A DNA stretch of 64,000 bases, from IMG/VR virus record IMGVR_UViG_3300017786_003484, positions 62,001 through 126,000 of that record, one strand, 5' to 3'. Shown piece after piece: positions 46,759 to 62,683 of the stretch. A program made the translations under genes and the position numbers. Position 1 is the first letter of the stretch. Every line of letters starts with the position of its first letter. A model generated the notes under the pieces. It was not told the origin of the DNA. It saw nothing but the letters and a program-made list of their open reading frames with translations, and searched no databases. The stretch is from a virus.

Positions 46759-47838
46759 ATGGAGCCAATTAAATTAAAGTGGCTAATAGCTCACGAGCCA
46801 CAATACCTATTTGTCCGCACGGCAAAAGCATTCCAAGAAGAATTAGAAAAAAGATGTCCAGGAGAGTTTGATATTGAAATCCTAGACATGAAAACTTACA
46901 TTCAAAAGTACGATGAAGTACCAGAATTACATCTTAAACCAGCATCTATAAAAAACTTAGAGAAAGACTGGGAAAATAGCAATAATATGGGCGGCGGAAT
47001 TTTTAAATCTGTGGCACAATCAGAGATAGGCAAGAAATGGAAAGCATATTTTTCTGCAATTAAGGATGGACGTATTGACATTAGTCAAACACAAATTACA
47101 GTTATAGGATCTTTCTTATATAAGCCTTTTCACTCTTTAGACCTTCCATTCCTATTCAAGGATCATGACCATGTAACCAGAGCATTAGACGGATGGATTG
47201 GTAAAAAACTTCGCGGCGAGCTGGAAGATAGAACTGGAGTTAAATCTTTAGGTTTTACTTACTCAGGCGGATTTAGAATTATCGGTTCTAACCATGATAT
47301 TGAAGGAGTATCTGACTTAAAAGATACAACTGTACAGACTGTTCCGACTACTACTGCAATGTTTAATAGTCCAGAAATTGGCAGTACTGCTATTCCTAGA
47401 AGGTCAATGGATATTCAAGAAGCTAAAGATTTTGCTAAAGATAGTAACTCGGCTGTTGAAACAACTTACCTAAGATTTAAAGGAACAAATATTTTAAAGA
47501 CAAACCATTCTATGTTCTTAACTAGTATTTTAGCAGGATCAAAATTATTTGACAAGCTAACACCAGAACAACAAGAAGCTTTCAAAGAATCTGCTTATGC
47601 AGTATCAAAGATTGAAAGAAAATGGTCACTTGAAGACTGTGAAAAGTATGAAAGAGAAGCAGAAGAGAAAGGAATTCAGATAAGAGATATTACTCAAGAA
47701 GAATCTGATTTTCTTGCTTCTAATGCTCGTGTTTCGTACGAAGATTATTTTTCAACTGATCATCAAAACGGTGGTAAAGTGCCAGACGAGCTTTATCATA
47801 AACGTAAACGTATTGTTGACGATATTAAAGCAATATAA
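46759..47838 (+). CDS. DctP-like TRAP solute-binding protein without signal peptide
   Basis: 359 residues. It starts directly with the first strand of the binding fold (IKLKWLIAHEPQYLFVRTAKA). LDLPFLFKDHDHVTRALDG, GVKSLGFTYSGGFRIIG and MFLTSILAGSKLFDKL are TRAP solute-binding landmarks. There is no hydrophobic leader, so the protein should stay in the cytoplasm or join the virion. It is paralogous to the protein at 51503. An extra loop at about residues 50-85 distinguishes it. Ligand unknown. Confidence 0.8.
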   Translation: MEPIKLKWLIAHEPQYLFVRTAKAFQEELEKRCPGEFDIEILDMKTYIQKYDEVPELHLKPASIKNLEKDWENSNNMGGGIFKSVAQSEIGKKWKAYFSAIKDGRIDISQTQITVIGSFLYKPFHSLDLPFLFKDHDHVTRALDGWIGKKLRGELEDRTGVKSLGFTYSGGFRIIGSNHDIEGVSDLKDTTVQTVPTTTAMFNSPEIGSTAIPRRSMDIQEAKDFAKDSNSAVETTYLRFKGTNILKTNHSMFLTSILAGSKLFDKLTPEQQEAFKESAYAVSKIERKWSLEDCEKYEREAEEKGIQIRDITQEESDFLASNARVSYEDYFSTDHQNGGKVPDELYHKRKRIVDDIKAI

Positions 47839-47845
47839 GTAACAA

Positions 47846-47892
47846 AATAGACTAGATAGGTAATTCAATTTTAAAACCCTATCTAGTCTATT
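47846..47892 (+). terminator. 15-bp hairpin after the first DctP-like gene
   Basis: AATAGACTAGATAGG (47846-47860) pairs perfectly with CCTATCTAGTCTATT (47878-47892) over a 17-base loop, followed by CTTTT. Likely a terminator, or a 3'-end protecting structure, since the T-run is short. Confidence 0.65.
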
Positions 47893-47897
47893 CTTTT

Positions 47898-47931
47898 GAT
47901 AAATAAAGTTAACATGTGTATAGCACATGTT
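47898..47931 (+). promoter_or_regulatory. late-type box and leader hairpin of the cold-shock gene
   Basis: GATAAATA (47898-47905) is followed by the perfect hairpin AACATGTG-tatag-CACATGTT (47911-47931) exactly where the message would begin. AAAAAGG stands before the ATG. Cold-shock mRNAs are often controlled by leader structure; a link here is inference. Confidence 0.5.
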
Positions 47932-47957
47932 ATTAATTAAAAAGGTACAAATAAAAT

Positions 47958-48176
47958 ATGGCAATAGAACTAACAGGCAAAGTAAAATGGTTTCAAGACG
48001 CAAAAGGATGGGGTTTTATTAAACCTGACGATGGTTCCGATGATGTTTTTGCACACTATTCAGCAATTAATTCGGATGGCTTTAAATCATTAAAAGAAGG
48101 TCAAGCAGTAACATTTGAAGTAATTCAAGGTGCTAAAGGACGTCAAGCCGCCAATATCAATTTAATTGAATCTTAA
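47958..48176 (+). CDS. cold-shock protein, CspA-like
   Basis: 72 residues, one cold-shock domain: [20 protein letters not shown] contains RNP1 (KGWGFI, with Trp in place of the usual Phe) and [10 protein letters not shown] contains RNP2. Such proteins bind ssRNA and ssDNA and melt secondary structure. Found between TRAP genes, so it may be only a cargo neighbour; it could aid translation of phage mRNA in cold water. Confidence 0.93.
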
Positions 48177-48216
48177 GACTAACTCTCCATAAATTATAAC
48201 AATAGTAATCTTAAAG

Positions 48217-48224
48217 ACTAAATA
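48217..48224 (+). promoter_or_regulatory. late-type promoter box before the TRAP operon
   Basis: ACTAAATA, about 85 bases before the dctQ-like ATG at 48310. No host-type promoter is visible in this gap, so the transporter would be expressed late. Weak evidence, from likeness only. Confidence 0.35.
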
Positions 48225-48309
48225 GATTATGGTAGTACATGTATAGGAACATAGAGTAACTATGCATATAACATCTGTTTACAGAAAATAGATAAGGCAT
48301 TAGAGATTC

Positions 48310-48807
48310 ATGAGTTTAACTGACTTCATCGACAGAAGTATAAGTCGATTTGCAAAATATTATTCTTGGTTTGCATTACTAATGGTATTGTTCGTTGTGA
48401 TCAATGTCTTGGGAAGATATTTCTTTGACATTCGCAATGATTATGCAGTTGATTCAACATGGCAATTATACGGTATGCTTATTATGTTTGGTTGCAGTTA
48501 TTCATTAGGAAAAGAAGCACATATTAGAACAGATCTGTTCTGGAACAATTATAAAGATCGTACAAAAGCAATTATTGACTTTGTAAGTTATCTCTTACTA
48601 TTCTTTCCTTCATTTGCACTTATCACATACATCAGTTTCAATGATACATCAGCCGCTATTGAGATGAACGAACGTAGTTCTGAAACAATGGCCCAGCTTA
48701 TTATATGGCCTATGAAGATTGGTATCACACTTGGTTTAGTACTTTTGATGGTACAAGCATTGAGTCAAATGATCAAATGTTATAGAAGGATTTTTATCAA
48801 TGAGTAA
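48310..48807 (+). CDS. dctQ: TRAP transporter small membrane subunit, DctQ-like
   Basis: 165 residues with four membrane spans: about 18-38 (YSWFALLMVLFVVINVLG), 51-66, 92-112 (VSYLLLFFPSFALITYI) and 132-155 (MKIGITLGLVLLMVQAL). RYFFDI after span 1 and EAHIRTDLFW after span 2 (the usual form is E-HIRVD) are the DctQ family marks. DctQ holds the large subunit and helps docking of the binding protein. It overlaps the next gene by eight bases. Confidence 0.88.
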   Translation: MSLTDFIDRSISRFAKYYSWFALLMVLFVVINVLGRYFFDIRNDYAVDSTWQLYGMLIMFGCSYSLGKEAHIRTDLFWNNYKDRTKAIIDFVSYLLLFFPSFALITYISFNDTSAAIEMNERSSETMAQLIIWPMKIGITLGLVLLMVQALSQMIKCYRRIFINE

Positions 48808-50194
48808 TGAATGGTTAGCAATGACAATGTTATTTACAATGATTGCTGGCATATTTGTTGGAGTTCCAGTTAGTTTTACACTAACATTCTTAGCATTAAT
48901 TTTTGGATTAATGGGATTAGGATTAAGTGTGTTTGATCTCACATATCTCAACCTATTAGGAGGACTTTCAGATGAAGTGCTGATGAGTATTCCTATGTTT
49001 ATCCTTATGGGTTATGTTGCTGAACGAGCCGGACTGGTAGAGAATTTATTTGAGAGCTTAAAAAAGGTACTTGCAGGAGTTCCAGGCAACTTATACATTG
49101 TTGTTATCTGTATTGCAGTATTAATTAGTTTAGCAACAGGAGTAGTCGGAGCATCAGTAACACTATTGGGCATTATGGCCGCTCCAAGTATGATTAAGCA
49201 AGGATACGATCCTAAACTATCAGCAGGAGTAATAGCAGGAGGCGGATCTCTTATCATGATCCCTCCATCCATTCCCCTTATTGTAATGGCGCCTACAATG
49301 AATCTTAATATCATTGACGTATATGCGGCCGCAATAGGACCAGGATTAGCGATTGCATTTATGTATCTAGTATACGTTATATTCCTTATAAAAACAAAGC
49401 CAGAGGTAGCACCTATGATACCTGTGGAAGAAAGAGTAAAAGTAGATTTCAAGTTAATTCTGTTAACGTTATGGCATATTGTGCCATTAGCATCATTGAT
49501 TCTTATTACATTAGGATCAATGTTATTTGGACTAGCAACTAGCACAGAAGCTGGTGCCTTTGGTGCCTTTGGTGCTTTATGTTTAGCCGCTATTAACAGA
49601 AGATTAACTTTAACAAATATTCAAGAAGCATTATTAAAAACTACCAATACGTCGGCAGTGGTAATGTTATTAGCAATTACGTCAACAATATTTGGTGCCG
49701 TATTTGCTTCCTTGGGTGGTGACAAAATCATTGTATCAGTACTAACTTCAATGCCTATACCCGGATGGGCAATAGTTGGAGCGATATTAGTGTTATGTCA
49801 TATTTTAGGCTGGCCCTTTGAGTGGCCAGTGGTAGTGCTAGTGTTCTTACCAATTTTCTTACCAGTATTAATTGATACTGGTGTTGACTTAATTTGGTTT
49901 GCGGCCGCTTTGGGTGTTATTTTACAAACAGCATATTTAACACCTCCTGTAGCCTTAACCGGATACTACCTAAAACAGGTGGTGCCTTCGTGGGATCTTA
50001 AATTAATATTCAAAGCAATGATGCCCTTTATGTATATTCAGGTTGTTTGTGTTGTAATATTGTTTATTACACCTGGCCTTGCAACATGGTTACCTAATTA
50101 CCTAGCAGAGCAAAGAAAAAATATAGTACAAGAAGTACTAGATGAGGATGTCAAAGGACAGGAAGTCGACTTCCTAGGTGTCCTTGGACAATAA
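48800..50194 (+). CDS. dctM: TRAP transporter large membrane subunit, DctM-like
   Basis: 464 residues with some 12 hydrophobic spans. The family pattern is clear: IFVGVPVSFTL at the start, LLGIMAAPSMIKQGYDPKLSA, GGGSLIMIPPSIPLIVMAP, and the second-half repeat with TPPVALTGYYLKQV. It catalyses sodium-driven uptake of organic acids delivered by DctP. It has the full length for a functional transporter and no frameshift. The next gene starts 19 bases after the stop with its own GGAGA site. Confidence 0.93.
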   Translation: MSNEWLAMTMLFTMIAGIFVGVPVSFTLTFLALIFGLMGLGLSVFDLTYLNLLGGLSDEVLMSIPMFILMGYVAERAGLVENLFESLKKVLAGVPGNLYIVVICIAVLISLATGVVGASVTLLGIMAAPSMIKQGYDPKLSAGVIAGGGSLIMIPPSIPLIVMAPTMNLNIIDVYAAAIGPGLAIAFMYLVYVIFLIKTKPEVAPMIPVEERVKVDFKLILLTLWHIVPLASLILITLGSMLFGLATSTEAGAFGAFGALCLAAINRRLTLTNIQEALLKTTNTSAVVMLLAITSTIFGAVFASLGGDKIIVSVLTSMPIPGWAIVGAILVLCHILGWPFEWPVVVLVFLPIFLPVLIDTGVDLIWFAAALGVILQTAYLTPPVALTGYYLKQVVPSWDLKLIFKAMMPFMYIQVVCVVILFITPGLATWLPNYLAEQRKNIVQEVLDEDVKGQEVDFLGVLGQ

Positions 50195-50213
50195 TATTTT
50201 GGAGAATAAAAAT

Positions 50214-51308
50214 ATGAAACGTTTCATCGGAGCGATATCAGCTATCGCAATGTCATTTGGCGTAGTGGCTTCAGTAGCAACTGCAAATGCCAAAGAACTA
50301 CAGATTGCATCTAGTTTTGGAGCAATCTCAACTTTTAACGAGCAAGCAAACTTTCTTGCCGAAAGAGTTAAAGTATTAACTGACGGAAAAATTGATATGA
50401 AAATCAGACCTTCCGGCGCATTAGTTCCTTCTTTTAAGGTTCTAGATGCTACGGCGTCAGGTGCAGTAGATGGTGCATGGACTCAGTCTTATTACTGGGT
50501 AGGAAAGTCAAAGACTCTTGCATTGTTTAATAGTCCGTTGGGAGGACCTTACGGTATGGACGGGATTGATTTCCTAGGTTGGATGTTCCACGGTGGTGGA
50601 CTTGAATTGTATAACGATTTTTATCAGAATGAGTTAAAAATGGATGTACAGGCACTTCCAGCAATGCCTACTCAGAATCAGCCATTAGGTTGGTTTCATA
50701 GACCAATTAAAGATCTAGCAGATCTTAAAAACTTTAAATGTCGTCAAACTGGCGCCAACGTAGAACTTTATGCTCGTATGGGTATGCAGACTATTGGTAT
50801 GCCAGGTGGTGAGATTATGGCCGCGGCCCAAAAGGGTGTTATTAATTGTGCTGAATTCGTTGGTGGTTTAGAAGACGAACGTCTTGGATTTCCAACTGTA
50901 TGGAAATACTACTACTTGAATTCATTGCATGAGCATTCAAATACTGGTGATCTATTGATTAACGGTAAAGTGTGGCGTTCAATGACTAAGCAACAGCAGA
51001 CCGCTGTTCGTTCTGCCGCTTATGAGTCATATCTATGGTGGTTAACTGATATTCAAGCAAAAAATGGTCAAGCACTTGCTAGAATGATCAAAGAGCATGG
51101 CGTTAGAGTTATGAAGACTCCAGCAGATATTTTGGTTGCTGAGTTAGAAACTATTGACGAAATGTTAGCAGAAAATGCCGCAAAGGATCCTTATTTTGCA
51201 AAAGTACTTGCTTCTCAGAAAGCATGGGCAAAGAAAGTAGTTCCATTTAAGAACGTAGCATTTACGCCTTATAACTATGCCGCAGATTACTACTGGAAGA
51301 AAAAGTAG
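50214..51308 (+). CDS. dctP: periplasmic TRAP solute-binding protein, DctP/TakP-like
   Basis: 364 residues from the ATG at 50214 (TTTTGGAGA site before it; a longer in-frame start overlaps dctM). Sec signal peptide MKRFIGAISAIAMSFG then VVASVATANA, cut before KELQI. GMPGGEIMAAAQKGVINCAEF, VGGLEDERLGFPTVWKYYY is the pattern of the 2-oxo-acid/lactate group (TakP type: [21 protein letters not shown]). The binding Arg is probably in FKCRQTG. It likely serves the DctQM pair upstream. A strong terminator follows. Confidence 0.9.
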   Translation: MKRFIGAISAIAMSFGVVASVATANAKELQIASSFGAISTFNEQANFLAERVKVLTDGKIDMKIRPSGALVPSFKVLDATASGAVDGAWTQSYYWVGKSKTLALFNSPLGGPYGMDGIDFLGWMFHGGGLELYNDFYQNELKMDVQALPAMPTQNQPLGWFHRPIKDLADLKNFKCRQTGANVELYARMGMQTIGMPGGEIMAAAQKGVINCAEFVGGLEDERLGFPTVWKYYYLNSLHEHSNTGDLLINGKVWRSMTKQQQTAVRSAAYESYLWWLTDIQAKNGQALARMIKEHGVRVMKTPADILVAELETIDEMLAENAAKDPYFAKVLASQKAWAKKVVPFKNVAFTPYNYAADYYWKKK

Positions 51309-51332
51309 TTTTAAAAGCATATAACGTTAAAA

Positions 51333-51361
51333 ATAGGGTGCTTTATGCATCCTATTTTTTT
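51333..51361 (+). terminator. intrinsic terminator of the TRAP operon
   Basis: ATAGGGTGC-tttat-GCATCCTAT (one G-U pair) followed by seven T. Preceded by AAAA, so it may act in both directions. It separates dctQMP from the DctP-like gene at 51503. Confidence 0.88.
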
Positions 51362-51390
51362 GGCTATAACTTCTATATTTGTTATAAATG

Positions 51391-51398
51391 TATAAATA
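51391..51398 (+). promoter_or_regulatory. perfect T4-type late promoter
   Basis: TATAAATA, identical to the T4 late box, upstream of the second DctP-like gene. The leader is about 100 bases, with AAAAAAGGAG before the ATG. Confidence 0.65.
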
Positions 51399-51502
51399 CA
51401 CTTGGATAGATACGGTTTAATACCTTATCGGAAAAAGCCAGTTTTCTATCTCAATGTTACTTGAAGTAATATTGTTTTCTTAAGAAAAAAAAGGAGTCAA
51501 TT

Positions 51503-52441
51503 ATGACACAGAAAATTAGATGGGTTCTAGCACATGAGCCAATTGAATTATTTCTAAGAGCGGCAAAAGTTTTCGCATCAGAAGTTAATGCAAAAGCAGA
51601 AGGCGCACTAGATATTGAAGTTATGACAATGAATGAGTATTCTGCAAAGTATAATAACGGTGTTGTTGTTACTAAGCACGAACTTGTTGATATGATTAAC
51701 AGAGGCGACATTGAAATGTCCCAAACATACACAGTAGACATTGGCGAATATGATCACGAATTCCGTGCATTAGATATGCCATTCCTATTTGAGTCACACG
51801 ACCACGCAACTAAAGTGTTCGAAGGCCCAATTGGTCAGTCACTACTAGACGGATTAACAGAATCAGCTGGTGTTAAAGGTTTAGCCTTTACATACTCCGG
51901 TGGATATAGAATTATTCCTGGACAAGAAGGAATTGATACTATTGAAGATATTAGAGATCTTAAACTTCGTACTTCTTTCTCACCTGTTGCTATTGAAACA
52001 TTCAAAGCAGTTGGTGCAAACGTAGTTCCAATGGAACTAGAAGAAATGACAGATGCAATCCAAGATGCAGACATTCAAGTTGGTGAGTCTACTTACCCAC
52101 GTATCTATGCATTAGGACAAGACAGAGTTTCTAAGGTTATTAACCACACAGAACACTCATTGTTCTTAACAAGCATCTTAATCAACCAAGACTTCTTTGC
52201 AACTCTTGGTGAAGAACTACAAGGTATTGTTGTAGACGCCGCTAAAACAGCCGCTAATTACGAACGTGTAATCAGCATTGAAGACGTTGCACTTACACAA
52301 GCTAAAGCTGAAAGCGATGGCATTGAAGTTCGTAGAATGTCAACAGAAGAAAAAGCTCGTTTCAAAGCCGCTACTGCTCATGTTTATGACATGTTCCCAG
52401 AGTTAGCTGGAACAGTTAAGAAGATCCAAGATACAAAATAA
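51503..52441 (+). CDS. second DctP-like solute-binding protein without signal peptide
   Basis: 312 residues. KIRWVLAHEPIELFLRAAKVF, LDMPFLFESHDHATKVFEG, GVKGLAFTYSGGYRIIPG, SLFLTSILINQDFF: clear paralogue of the protein at 46759 and a TRAP solute-binding fold. It begins with the first strand and has no export signal. It has its own perfect late box and terminator, so it is a monocistronic late gene, unusual for a transporter part. It could be a cytoplasmic ligand sink, a sensor or a virion component. Confidence 0.82.
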   Translation: MTQKIRWVLAHEPIELFLRAAKVFASEVNAKAEGALDIEVMTMNEYSAKYNNGVVVTKHELVDMINRGDIEMSQTYTVDIGEYDHEFRALDMPFLFESHDHATKVFEGPIGQSLLDGLTESAGVKGLAFTYSGGYRIIPGQEGIDTIEDIRDLKLRTSFSPVAIETFKAVGANVVPMELEEMTDAIQDADIQVGESTYPRIYALGQDRVSKVINHTEHSLFLTSILINQDFFATLGEELQGIVVDAAKTAANYERVISIEDVALTQAKAESDGIEVRRMSTEEKARFKAATAHVYDMFPELAGTVKKIQDTK

Positions 52442-52834: not shown

Positions 52835-53920
52835 ATGCCGGCAAGAAATCATAGAAATTGGTTAAAGAAACCATTAGTAGAATATGTTAGTAGCGAAATA
52901 TATTCAAGTCAAGAAATATTTGAAGAAGAAATCGAAAGTATCTTTTCAAAGGTGTGGGTACCAGTATGCCACATCAGTGAAATGTATAACAAATTAGACT
53001 ATCGAACATCACAAATTGCTGGACATAATATTATTGTGTACAATACCGGAGATGGTGTACGAGCATATCGTAATTATGGCAGTTGGGCACCTACTGGAAC
53101 ATTGCAAGCACCTATTGTAACAGTTGAACCACAACTACATAGCGAAGTAAAGCACGGAGGTATGGTATGGGTAACACTTGATCCTAATCCTACACAGAGT
53201 GTTGAAGAGTGGACAGCAGGTGCATTTGATTGCATTGCTGATGCTATTGACACAGAAGAACTAGAAATTTTTCATTATCATAAAGCAATTATTCCTACCA
53301 ACTACAAACTATGGCATGATACTAACAGTGAATTCTATCATGACTTCATGCATTACTTTAATCGTGTAACTGGTTTCAACGATGAGTATTTTGCTAGAAA
53401 GAATATTCCCTTTGATAACGGGCATGTGAACGTTAGTAGTTTTACTGTAAATTATACAGAGTTTGATAAAGAAGGCGATAGAGGTGAACTAAGTTTTCCT
53501 AACTTACCTCCAAACCAATGGTATATGGTAGATTTGTTTCCTGGCTTTAACTTTAATTTACGTGGTAGTGCATATCGTTCAGATAGTGTTACGCCACTTG
53601 GACCAAATAGTGTACTAATAGAGTTTAGAGGATACGGTTTAAAGAAAGATACTCCAGAAGAAAGACAAACTCGTATTAAACATCATAATACTATCTGGGG
53701 ACCGTTTGGCAGAAACTTACATGAAGATCTTTTAGGTGTAACCGGGCAAGGAGCATCAATGTCTCCAGGCACAGAGAAAAGAAATATTTTACATGGAAGA
53801 CATGAAAATAGTACTATACATGATGAAGTTGGTATGCGTCACTACTATGCAGAATGGGGAAAATATATGGAGTTAGATCCTAGTAATCCAATAAAAGAGG
53901 TTGACAAAAAGGCCGCATAG
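52835..53920 (+). CDS. ring-hydroxylating oxygenase alpha-subunit homologue lacking the Rieske site
   Basis: 361 residues. The framework of Rieske oxygenase alpha subunits is present: IFSKVWVPVCHISEM, DYRTSQIAGHNIIVYNTGDG, VRAYRN at 75-80. At that point the family has the two Cys-x-His / Cys-x2-His cluster motifs over 30 or so residues; here the chain goes directly to YGSWAPTGTLQAPIV. The mononuclear iron region remains (NYKLWHDTNSEFYHDFMH, H169 and H173, with acidic residues near HEDLLGVTGQG). Without the cluster it cannot take electrons the usual way. A tmRNA promoter lies in its last codons. Confidence 0.75.
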   Translation: MPARNHRNWLKKPLVEYVSSEIYSSQEIFEEEIESIFSKVWVPVCHISEMYNKLDYRTSQIAGHNIIVYNTGDGVRAYRNYGSWAPTGTLQAPIVTVEPQLHSEVKHGGMVWVTLDPNPTQSVEEWTAGAFDCIADAIDTEELEIFHYHKAIIPTNYKLWHDTNSEFYHDFMHYFNRVTGFNDEYFARKNIPFDNGHVNVSSFTVNYTEFDKEGDRGELSFPNLPPNQWYMVDLFPGFNFNLRGSAYRSDSVTPLGPNSVLIEFRGYGLKKDTPEERQTRIKHHNTIWGPFGRNLHEDLLGVTGQGASMSPGTEKRNILHGRHENSTIHDEVGMRHYYAEWGKYMELDPSNPIKEVDKKAA

Positions 53921-53931
53921 TGTTATAAATA
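53901..53931 (+). promoter_or_regulatory. ssrA: tmRNA promoter, combined host-type and late-type
   Basis: TTGACA at 53901-53906, 17-bp spacer, TATAAA at 53924-53929. The -10 is at the same time the start of a perfect T4 late box TATAAATA (53924-53931). It lies across the stop codon of the oxygenase-like gene. Start expected near 53936. This would keep the RNA made through the whole infection. Confidence 0.7.
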
Positions 53932-53935
53932 TAAT

Positions 53936-53997
53936 ACAATGGTGAAGCATAACAAACGTTGTACAGGACTCGGGGGCAGTACCCGACGCCTCCACCA
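53936..53997 (+). ncRNA. ssrA: tmRNA acceptor piece (3' part) of a permuted two-piece tmRNA
   Basis: The 3' domain comes first in the gene. T-arm: TCGGG (53970-53974), loop GGCAGTA (53975-53981), CCCGA (53982-53986). Acceptor 3' strand CGCCTCC (53987-53993), discriminator A and encoded CCA (53995-53997). It pairs with GGGGGCG at 54197-54203 over seven pairs, with a G-U at the third position, the alanine identity element of AlaRS. The order acceptor piece, spacer, coding piece is that of alphaproteobacterial tmRNAs. The 5' limit is set from the promoter. Confidence 0.88.
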
Positions 53998-54196
53998 TAA
54001 ACACACGAACGAGGAATGGAACTATAAACAGTTTTAAAGATAAGTGTAGAATATTTTATATCGTTAAAGGTCATCTTAACGTATCTACACAAACAATAGA
54101 AGATTGTTACGATTATTATTTTAGAAGAATGTGGAATAATAACGAGTGTTACATATACGAAGAAGGTTTTGAAGAATCGTATCGTGTTTTTATGAT
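53998..54196 (+). other. intervening segment of the permuted tmRNA precursor
   Basis: 199 bases between the encoded CCA and the 5' end of the coding piece, expected to be cut out during maturation. It is not empty: from about 54013 to the TAG at 54208-54210 one frame is open for over 60 codons with protein-like content (CRIFYIVKGHLNVSTQTIED for example), but no ATG, GTG or TTG starts it near its 5' end. The segment may be a remnant gene or just AT-rich spacer. Confidence 0.5.
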
Positions 54197-54376
54197 GGGG
54201 GCGAAATAGGATCGACTGGCAAGTAGTAGGAATGTGGAGTTGTCCGGATGTAAGCTCGGTTAACGCGAACAAAACGATAATTGCAAACGATAATTTTGCA
54301 TCTGAGGATTTTGCCCTAGCGGCTTAGTTACTCTGGGCGGGTACTGCCTGGAAACAGAAGTGCCACTTAAAGTGAA
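54197..54376 (+). ncRNA. ssrA: tmRNA coding piece (5' part) with tag ANDNFASEDFALAA
   Basis: It begins GGGGGCGAAATAGGATCGAC, the tmRNA 5' signature (acceptor strand and D-region). Pseudoknot-type complementarity follows (GTCCGG and CTCGG near 54240-54260). The tag frame starts at GCA 54283 and reads ANDNFASEDFALAA, stop TAG at 54325-54327. The tag ends ALAA, the ClpXP signal. An identical ACGATAATT stands before and within the tag start, so the resume codon is the likeliest but not the only choice. The 3' end is uncertain by about 15 bases. Function: rescue of stalled ribosomes, with host SmpB. Confidence 0.9.
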
Positions 54377-56419: not shown

Positions 56420-57058
56420 ATGCTATCAACATATGCAAATAAACAAAATACTCATCTTGTAATAGATACAACAACTAATGGAATATTAATTGCAGTACAT
56501 AGCAACGTTGTTGCGAATGCAATATGTTTTAAAATATTGAATACAGAAGCAATGTCTATTAGGCTAGTAGATTTCAACGAGGAAATAAATCCATTGCTTA
56601 AACCACAGTTTAATGAGTCTAGTAATTTTATATTAACTAAAGTTGGACACAACTTAACACCTCAATCAACAGCAAATGTTGGACAACTTGTAAAAAGTAC
56701 AGATGGCAATGGCCGTTTTGGTGTAGCTAAAATGTCTGAAGTAACAGATGAGTGGATAGCATTAAGAAAGAAAGCACATAATATCAAAGAAGTTATAGCA
56801 AGTAGCGATCTTCGAGTTCTTAGATCAGCAACACCGAGCAAAAAGTTCTTTGGAGACACTATTACCTTTCCTTTTATTAAAAAAGAACTTGATAAATGTA
56901 ATCCACAGGAAGATCAATACACAGATGCTATTCGAGAATGGGCAAATATAGTAAATGTTCCTGTAAAAAAAGGATTTGAAATGCTATCAGCAGAAAGCAA
57001 TAATATTACTCATTTGGTTAATAATTCAAGAATATTTTGGAGTAAAAAATGTCTTTAA
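56420..57058 (+). CDS. unknown protein A of the PP-loop module
   Basis: 212 residues. The C-terminal domain (FPFIKKELDKCNPQEDQYTDAI, REWANIVNVPVKKGFEML) is paralogous to the protein at 58079 (IPYMSNELSKCKPDEDQYTN, VIEWAIASGLDVKQAYHEL), and the N-termini correspond (MLSTYANKQN and MLDTFSNRKN). No catalytic motif known to me. It overlaps the PP-loop ATPase gene by ten bases. The LxKCxPxEDQYT motif is the best handle for finding relatives. Confidence 0.7.
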   Translation: MLSTYANKQNTHLVIDTTTNGILIAVHSNVVANAICFKILNTEAMSIRLVDFNEEINPLLKPQFNESSNFILTKVGHNLTPQSTANVGQLVKSTDGNGRFGVAKMSEVTDEWIALRKKAHNIKEVIASSDLRVLRSATPSKKFFGDTITFPFIKKELDKCNPQEDQYTDAIREWANIVNVPVKKGFEMLSAESNNITHLVNNSRIFWSKKCL

Positions 57059-58086
57059 ATTATGCTTTTAGTACTAAATTAAAACATGGTAGTGAATATG
57101 CTAAGAAAGACATTGCTGTTTTTCGTTCTCTTTATCATATGGATCCAGATCCATTTTTAGTTGATAGAACTGACTCTGTGGTCTTTCCTTTCTCAGAAAA
57201 CAATTATTTTCCAATGATACAACCGTTATCTAATGTTATGAGTTGGGAAGAATGTACAAAAGAGAGAGTTGAAGAACTAATATCCTTTGACAAAGAACTT
57301 TATGTTATGTGGAGCGGAGGAATAGATAGTACATTAATGCTTTTATCTTTTATGAAATATAGTAATATGAATAATGTTACAATAGTTTTAAACATGGACT
57401 CAATTAAAGAATATCCTTATTTTTATAAAAGGTTTATAGCTCAATGTAATTATAAATTACTGTCAACTGAACAATTAATGAATAATGCATTGCTAAATGA
57501 CATCAATGGATTAATAGTATCAGCCGAACATGCTGATCAGTTAGTTGGATCTCCTTTGGCTCAGTTACTTGCAACAACATCAGGTAGAACAATGCTTGGT
57601 CTTCCATTTGATGAAGAAAATTTCAGCAAATTTTTAACAAACTTAAATGTTCCAGTACATCATATTGATACAATAATGGAACTCTATAACATTAGTATTA
57701 AAAACAGTCCTCGTCCAATTAAGAATATGTGGGATCTCTGTTGGTGGCATGGATTTAACTTTAAATGGCAAACCATCTACATGAAACTGGCTATTAGAAT
57801 AAAAAATCCTTTGAATCTTTTAACTTTCTACTCTTCGGTAAACTTTCAAAATACCAGTATACACCAAGAAGGTAATACACTTGATCTAAAGAAAGTTTTT
57901 AAAGATATAATCGTTAATTATACCGAAGATACTGAATACCTAAGAAAAGAAAAATTTGCATCTTCAACATTATATTATGGACTAACCTCTTCGACAGGAT
58001 TAGACAAAAATTGGAATAAAATTAATGTTGATATGATTGAATACTATAATAAAGATAACACTATAAAGGAAATAATGAATGCTTGA
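57049..58086 (+). CDS. PP-loop (N-type ATP pyrophosphatase) protein, asparagine-synthase-like
   Basis: 345 residues. LYVMWSGGIDSTLMLLSF contains SGGIDS at 89-94, the pyrophosphate-binding loop of asparagine synthetase, GMP synthetase, QueC and ThiI. It follows a 75-residue N-terminal part with no glutaminase Cys. GLIVSAEHADQLVG resembles the second conserved block (SGEGADE in asparagine synthetases) in altered form. It activates a carboxylate or base by adenylation, by family rule. It lies between two paralogous genes with ten- and eight-base overlaps. Confidence 0.8.
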   Translation: MSLNYAFSTKLKHGSEYAKKDIAVFRSLYHMDPDPFLVDRTDSVVFPFSENNYFPMIQPLSNVMSWEECTKERVEELISFDKELYVMWSGGIDSTLMLLSFMKYSNMNNVTIVLNMDSIKEYPYFYKRFIAQCNYKLLSTEQLMNNALLNDINGLIVSAEHADQLVGSPLAQLLATTSGRTMLGLPFDEENFSKFLTNLNVPVHHIDTIMELYNISIKNSPRPIKNMWDLCWWHGFNFKWQTIYMKLAIRIKNPLNLLTFYSSVNFQNTSIHQEGNTLDLKKVFKDIIVNYTEDTEYLRKEKFASSTLYYGLTSSTGLDKNWNKINVDMIEYYNKDNTIKEIMNA

Positions 58087-61780: not shown

Positions 61781-62683
61781 ATGAAGATATTACCCTTAGC
61801 CACGATCGCAGTATTCGTGGGCATCTTTACGGCGAATGCTGGTGAAAAACTAGCACTTCCGTCTACAGAAGGTGTAGACATTACAACATATGGTGAAGTC
61901 CGAGCATATGTTGAAACTTCGACTGTTAATGATGTTGATACAGCAATTAAAACATCAGACAGTAAAATAGGACTAAAATTTAAGACTAAAGAACCAGTAT
62001 ATGTCTTTGGAGAAATGTCAGCTAATGTTGATCTATCCTCAGACGGAGCAGACGATGTAACAACTCGGTTTGGTTATATTGGCGTAGGTACCAATGCATT
62101 GGGAGAAATTTCACTTGGACGTACAATGAGCATTATGGATTCATTTGTTGATAAAGCAGATGTGTTTATGGGTGCAGGAAATCAAGGAGTTCAGAAGACT
62201 CCTTTTACTATGAATAACAGTTTGAAGTATACTGGTAGTTTTAGCGGAGTCGATGTTGGCTTTCAAACACAAATGACTGATGATGCACAAGACCATGACT
62301 TGGATTTATATCAAATTGGTTTAGGCTACAAAGGCATTGGTGTTGCATATGCAAGAGATGAAATTAATTCATCTGACTACTATGGCTTGGGTGTTTCTCA
62401 AAAGTTTGGAAAAATTGGAGCATATGCTAGTGTATCGGTATTAGATGATGATACACAAGCAAATGATGCAGTTGGATATGAACTTGCTGGTTCATATGAT
62501 TTAAACGAAAAACTAACACTACAAGGCGGTTGGCAAGATACTGATGTTACATCAGATGACGGTAACTTGACAATTGAATCACAGTATGAGATTGCAACTC
62601 AATCAGTATTTTTTACTAATATTGATTATGACTTAACAACAGAAGATGCAACTCTTCGAACAGGTCTTAGCTTTACATTCTAA
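61781..62683 (+). CDS. outer-membrane porin-like beta-barrel
   Basis: 300 residues. Signal peptide MKILPLATIAVFVGIFTANA, cut before GEK. The mature part shows alternating strands ending in aromatic residues (VDITTYGEVRAYVETS, RFGYIGVGTNALGEISLGR, GVAYARDEINSSDYYGLGVSQ) and the C-terminal Phe (LRTGLSFTF) needed for barrel assembly. Acidic loops suggest cation selectivity. This is a general porin of the Gram-negative type carried by a phage. Uses: nutrient entry with the TRAP genes, or receptor change. Ribosome site AAAGGAAAA. Confidence 0.85.
   Translation: MKILPLATIAVFVGIFTANAGEKLALPSTEGVDITTYGEVRAYVETSTVNDVDTAIKTSDSKIGLKFKTKEPVYVFGEMSANVDLSSDGADDVTTRFGYIGVGTNALGEISLGRTMSIMDSFVDKADVFMGAGNQGVQKTPFTMNNSLKYTGSFSGVDVGFQTQMTDDAQDHDLDLYQIGLGYKGIGVAYARDEINSSDYYGLGVSQKFGKIGAYASVSVLDDDTQANDAVGYELAGSYDLNEKLTLQGGWQDTDVTSDDGNLTIESQYEIATQSVFFTNIDYDLTTEDATLRTGLSFTF

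Follow-up and report, generated by a model that had tools for sequence, protein, structure and literature searches.

Phages carry transport-related auxiliary metabolic genes (AMGs), such as pstS and the like in cyanophages, and to our knowledge most described phage uptake genes encode lone binding proteins or pores. The subject of this study is a complete tripartite ATP-independent periplasmic (TRAP) transporter cassette, dctQMP, in a 64,000-nucleotide stretch of viral DNA (positions 62,001 to 126,000 of IMG/VR record IMGVR_UViG_3300017786_003484), hereafter called the window. The source record is 244,432 bp long and its phage is T4-like, encoding a sheath protein, terminase, UvsX and class I ribonucleotide reductase. 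The relatives of known structure that best match DctP, the substrate-binding protein (SBP) of the cassette, are TakP (2hzk) and a protein that binds ketoacids (7ug8). TakP binds pyruvate through R177 and Y100, and its cation is coordinated by the side chains of Q156, E214 and E240 and by the backbone carbonyl at position 215 (PMC1839085). We consider it probable that the cassette is a working phage-borne TRAP importer, a Q-M-P variant that has spread between distantly related T4-like phages.

The genes for the small permease subunit DctQ (48310..48807, 165 residues), the large permease subunit DctM (48800..50194, 464 residues) and the TakP-like binding protein DctP (50214..51308, 364 residues) are adjacent on the plus strand. 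Each is an intact, full-length open frame whose product exceeds its Pfam family cut-off (PF04290, 2.5e-20, 73 bits; PF06808, 1.7e-60, 205 bits; and PF03480, 2.2e-32, 113 bits, respectively). DctP is predicted to be exported because its N-terminus, MKRFIGAISAIAMSFGVVASVATANA followed by KELQ, has the sequence of a signal peptide (about 50214-50291, plus strand, read by eye), with a positively charged start, a hydrophobic core and an A-N-A cleavage site, and because a GGAG ribosome site precedes the ATG at 50214. This ATG appears to be a better start than the less likely GTG at 50178, which opens the longest frame. A hairpin of 13 pairs followed by a T-run lies 3' of DctP (51329..51359, plus strand; RNA fold −16.2 kcal/mol, z = −5.7) and is the probable dctQMP terminator. 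Matches in a scan with sigma-70 and terminator consensus sequences were no more frequent than in shuffles, and hairpins were assessed by RNA folding (z scores) in its place. The preliminary description of this DNA, which reported an intact transporter with a signal peptide and a terminator, is thus borne out. It placed the system in the interval 46759-52441, where dctQMP indeed lies, and left unmentioned a cold-shock gene and two leaderless DctP-fold proteins, SBPx and SBPi, whose genes stand first and last in that interval.

In scans of IMG/VR, repeated with other patterns, relatives of DctM and of DctP were each found at 24 distinct loci. Gene maps of the window-type relatives show that independent assemblies contain the cassette in identical or nearly identical form, between the same flanks. 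In locus L017 the cassette lies next to a terminase, in L014-L016 and L024 it lies next to a neck/terminase module, and its flanks are unrelated in L011, L012, L013, L018, L019 and L021. Between the window and L017 the large terminase subunit is 32% identical and DctP 76%; DctQ is 54–60% identical to that of other phage lineages and 36% identical to the Sinorhizobium fredii homologue. The ratio of nonsynonymous to synonymous substitutions (dN/dS) is 0.07–0.11 for DctQ, DctM and DctP, indicating purifying selection, and in L006 SBPx is absent and dctQMP retained. The synonymous divergence (dS) between the window and L007 is 0.28–0.36 for DctM, DctP and SBPi and 0.79–1.13 for DctQ, SBPx and a 620-residue gene; the lower values are consistent with the cassette having moved between phages recently. 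In the isolate phage collection, matches reached just 21–26%, mostly in short unannotated records. Two further matching records, long and with a Salmonella annotation, look like host DNA and were rejected.

Trees were built from 50 DctP rows and 48 DctM rows. The cellular sample behind them consisted of evenly drawn genomes, 385 from Alphaproteobacteria and 399 from Pseudomonadota, and of pattern-based matches in GTDB. A GTDB scan with phage-only patterns gave zero matches, and patterns from mixed alignments gave matches. The phage sequences form a single clade with support of 100/100 in both trees. Among the sampled cells, the closest relatives come from non-SAR11 alphaproteobacteria with genomes of 3–8 Mb, at about 45–50% identity, together with two further large Pseudomonadota genomes. 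A link to SAR11 had been envisaged, and it found no support: relatives in the two small genomes taken to be SAR11, by their size and gene content only, are 32–34% (DctP) and 44% (DctM) identical and fall outside the nearest cellular neighbours of the phage clade. The same gene order had also been proposed as something to look for in viral contigs, and Q-M-P was found in 12 of 12 phage loci. The cellular order is P-Q-M in 36 of 37 distinct loci (47+1 rows before de-duplication), P lying apart from M-Q in the remaining one. That the cassette is mis-assembled host DNA or a decaying passenger is extremely improbable. It is not host contamination, because the cassette with identical flanks recurs in independent assemblies; its presence in several phage lineages, its phage-only clade and its low dN/dS also speak against both possibilities, and the earlier stance against mis-assembly stands.

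The residues Y100, Q156, R177, E214 and E240 of TakP are identical in all 15 phage DctP sequences. R177 is the carboxylate-binding arginine, which (as R147 of SiaP) is conserved in 96.8% of the family (PMC4646407). Q156 and E240 are variable in lineages L094-L100 and in the genomes taken as SAR11. The preliminary description had seen in TakP-like motifs a pointer to 2-oxo acids, and the complete set of ligand residues agrees with it; the ligand of DctP is probably a small 2-oxo (or 2-hydroxy) monocarboxylate together with a cation. It is possible, at a lesser probability, that the transporter works on something other than a 2-oxo acid, either a hydroxy acid of the lactate type or some other small carboxylate. 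The best-match family of DctP includes TTHA0766, named as a lactate-binding protein, and SBPs of unstated ligand, and the conserved arginine and cation ligands would be compatible with any 2-oxo or 2-hydroxy monocarboxylate. However, the phage proteins keep the full pyruvate and cation set of TakP, including E240, at positions where the lineages just mentioned vary.

In the permease HiSiaQM, the carbonyl of G337 coordinates the sodium ion at the Na1 site (PMC10942642). The equivalent glycine of DctM is removed by a one-residue deletion in 12 of 12 phage rows and is present in 36 of 36 cellular rows, HiSiaM and PpSiaM. The stem branch of the phage clade in the DctM tree is also long, at 2.15 changes per column. 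Both features would suit a phage DctM turned into an altered machine (in its coupling ion, stoichiometry or leak) for export or exchange of acids during infection, not scavenging. We find this unlikely, since phage DctM keeps the equivalents of S295, P342, G517 and T561, and since the maintenance beside it of an exported, fully TakP-like binding protein fits import. The Na2 site is kept except for G558A, a change common to most sampled cellular relatives. By sequence, the Q-M-P order, the Na1-glycine deletion and the full TakP residue set mark the phage transporters as a lineage of their own.

If the cassette is an importer, DctP would be exported to the periplasm, bind a small 2-oxo or 2-hydroxy monocarboxylate with a cation, and pass the ligand to the DctQ-DctM membrane complex, where import would be driven by an ion gradient. 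An infected alphaproteobacterial host would thereby take in additional carbon or energy. The cassette may have originated in a single capture from a cellular TakP-like system, with P-Q-M rearranged to Q-M-P, and then spread between distantly related T4-like phages. Both the anatomy of the cassette and the selection on it support the earlier claim of a working uptake system, although transport, the substrate, ion coupling and the benefit to the phage are what we infer from the sequences. Several points weigh against this interpretation. The Na1 loop is one residue shorter than in all sampled cellular homologues, and coupling may differ. The AlphaFold prediction of DctP from phage rows alone was poor (predicted local distance difference test, pLDDT, 47) and the model was set aside. 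Finally, the nearest cells come from a limited sample, and a closer cellular donor may exist.

SBPx (46759..47838, plus strand, 359 residues; PF03480, 1.5e-26) and SBPi (51503..52441, plus strand, 312 residues; PF03480, 3.1e-50) have their N-terminus right at the first strand of the mature fold; both genes have ribosome sites, and an in-frame stop lies 21 nt before SBPx and 33 nt before SBPi. Relatives of the two are encoded by 373 IMG/VR stretches in a profile scan. Of 103 distinct homologues whose N-terminus is complete, none has a convincing signal peptide: 91 have room for at most 14 more residues at this end, and in the remaining 12 whatever extension is possible does not look signal-like on inspection. 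The closest cellular relatives among the 385 alphaproteobacterial genomes, a pair in one genome (G192), have signal peptides. DctM (PF06808) had no match in the eight SBPi records, which include a 345-kb and a 207-kb record and some fragments; the window phage is the exception. SBPi and SBPx are probably cytoplasmic proteins separate from the importer and not transporter subunits. A T4 late promoter sequence, TATAAATA, 112 bp upstream of SBPi was judged to be a chance match, the whole window holding only two copies on the plus strand.

The AlphaFold2 model of SBPi (pLDDT 95) has a complete TRAP SBP fold, with a template modelling (TM) score of 0.88 to 8t9t, the isethionate-binding IseP. Residues W7, H11, P13, S132-G134, R200 and H218 are the same in all 96 aligned leaderless rows and make up a pocket-like signature. 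The ligand arginine is present in 83 of these rows; SBPi keeps it as R156, as does most of its type, and SBPx has Q in its place, with other residues in SBPx-type rows. The dN/dS of the leaderless proteins is 0.05–0.18 (0.05–0.17 for SBPi). The most likely history is that phages took an exported SBP, lost its signal and retained the pocket, cytoplasmic action being likeliest. The missing signal peptides and DctM genes, the complete fold, the signature and the low dN/dS would all suit proteins that are not transport parts at all and act as cytosolic ligand binders (for example soaking up a host metabolite or signal) or as SBP-derived enzymes, which we rate at somewhat under an even chance. A location in the virion is the main alternative to the cytoplasm: a released or injected virion protein would be leaderless too, and the SBP gene sits within the tail/head module in several phages. 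More tentatively, the leaderless TRAP binding proteins might be a large unrecognised family of phage cytosolic binders, accompanied by a Na1-deleted DctM re-tuned for infected cells.

Leaderless DctP-fold genes occur in tandem duplicate in one phage (L069/L070 8001-9920 and L072 7026-8939). Islands beside SBPi in large phages (L055, L057, L060, L062, L064, L065, L071 and L072) encode several paralogous PP-loop (SGGxDS) proteins. Various islands also contain genes for an exported binding protein resembling TctC, a fatty-acid desaturase and an ATP-grasp protein, and some have a probable beta-keto-acid cleavage enzyme and a protein resembling short-chain dehydrogenases/reductases (SDR), both named by eye from sequence. 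Directly 3' of SBPi in L026 (2754-2832, plus strand) lies a freshwater-2 candidate cis-regulatory RNA (RF02980, 67 bits).

A 15-bp inverted repeat 3' of SBPx (47846..47892, plus strand; RNA fold −19.8 kcal/mol, z = −6.1) is terminator-like and sets SBPx apart from dctQMP. Between SBPx and DctQ lies the gene for a cold-shock-domain protein (47958..48176, plus strand, 72 residues; PF00313, 8.4e-30), which is kept in window-type relatives wherever the contig covers its position. A permuted alphaproteobacterial transfer-messenger RNA (tmRNA) beside the cassette (53897-54367, plus strand; RF01849, 101 bits, and RF04321, 106 bits) suggests an alphaproteobacterial host for the window phage. It supports this host without proving it, because two-piece tmRNAs occur in marine phages of both SAR11 and OM43 (PMC9004378). 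The permuted tmRNA is also found in L006, L007, L010, L026 and L011; its tag ANDNFASEDFALAA is conserved, and the tag in L011 is ANDNFASEEFALAA. The tmRNA at 53897-54367 was not detected by ARAGORN. The phage had been called lytic, and the absence of a Phage_integrase match across the entire 244-kb record is consistent with this without proving it.

Other neighbouring genes were also noted. A ring-hydroxylating-oxygenase-like protein (52835-53920, plus strand) has Rieske-domain similarity at its N-terminus; its Rieske cluster is probably lost, because a CxH or CxxH motif is found nowhere in it. The gene is present in the window and L006 and absent in L007. The product of 57049-58086 (plus strand), which was noted together with its neighbours, is a PP-loop protein (SGGIDS). 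Several of the DctQMP and SBPi phages carry its relatives repeated next to one another, possibly as a biosynthesis module. A Porin_4 protein with a likely signal peptide is encoded at 61781-62683 (plus strand). This porin had been described as a match for the transporter, which holds among close kin of the window and not as a general partnership: of 10 DctQMP phage records, the 3 with a Porin_4 match are all closely related to the window, and records of 228 kb and 154 kb are without it.

Among known systems, TakP of Rhodobacter sphaeroides (2hzk/2hzl) resembles the phage DctP in fold, signal peptide and the five conserved ligand residues. The present system differs from it in being phage-borne, in its Q-M-P order and in the deleted Na1 glycine of DctM, and TakP W215, a ligand through its backbone only, is F in phage DctP. 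The TRAP operon of S. fredii plasmid pSfreNXT3c (L088) has a DctP of the same KCRQTG subfamily, 41–42% identical, and a DctM 44–48% identical; unlike the phage cassette, it has the P-Q-M order, N for E240, the Na1 glycine and adjoining catabolic genes. Searches of the open-access literature, the coverage of which was incomplete, turned up no description of a phage with a complete TRAP system. A phage TRAP-SBP-like protein has been described there, with no mention of a TRAP permease alongside. DctP/TeaA matches to SBPi in BFVD are entries of about 160 residues with 35–53% identity, and an RP12 protein found by fold is 8% identical to SBPi. The dctQMP cassette is thus a phage-specific variant of a known transporter, standing beside a widespread family of leaderless phage proteins; it is under strong purifying selection and has been passed between phages as distant as their terminases indicate. 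Like the pstS-type AMGs of cyanophages it is a phage-carried means of nutrient uptake, but instead of a single binding protein or porin it provides all three parts of a secondary transporter, through which infected cells may gain a new route of organic-acid import.

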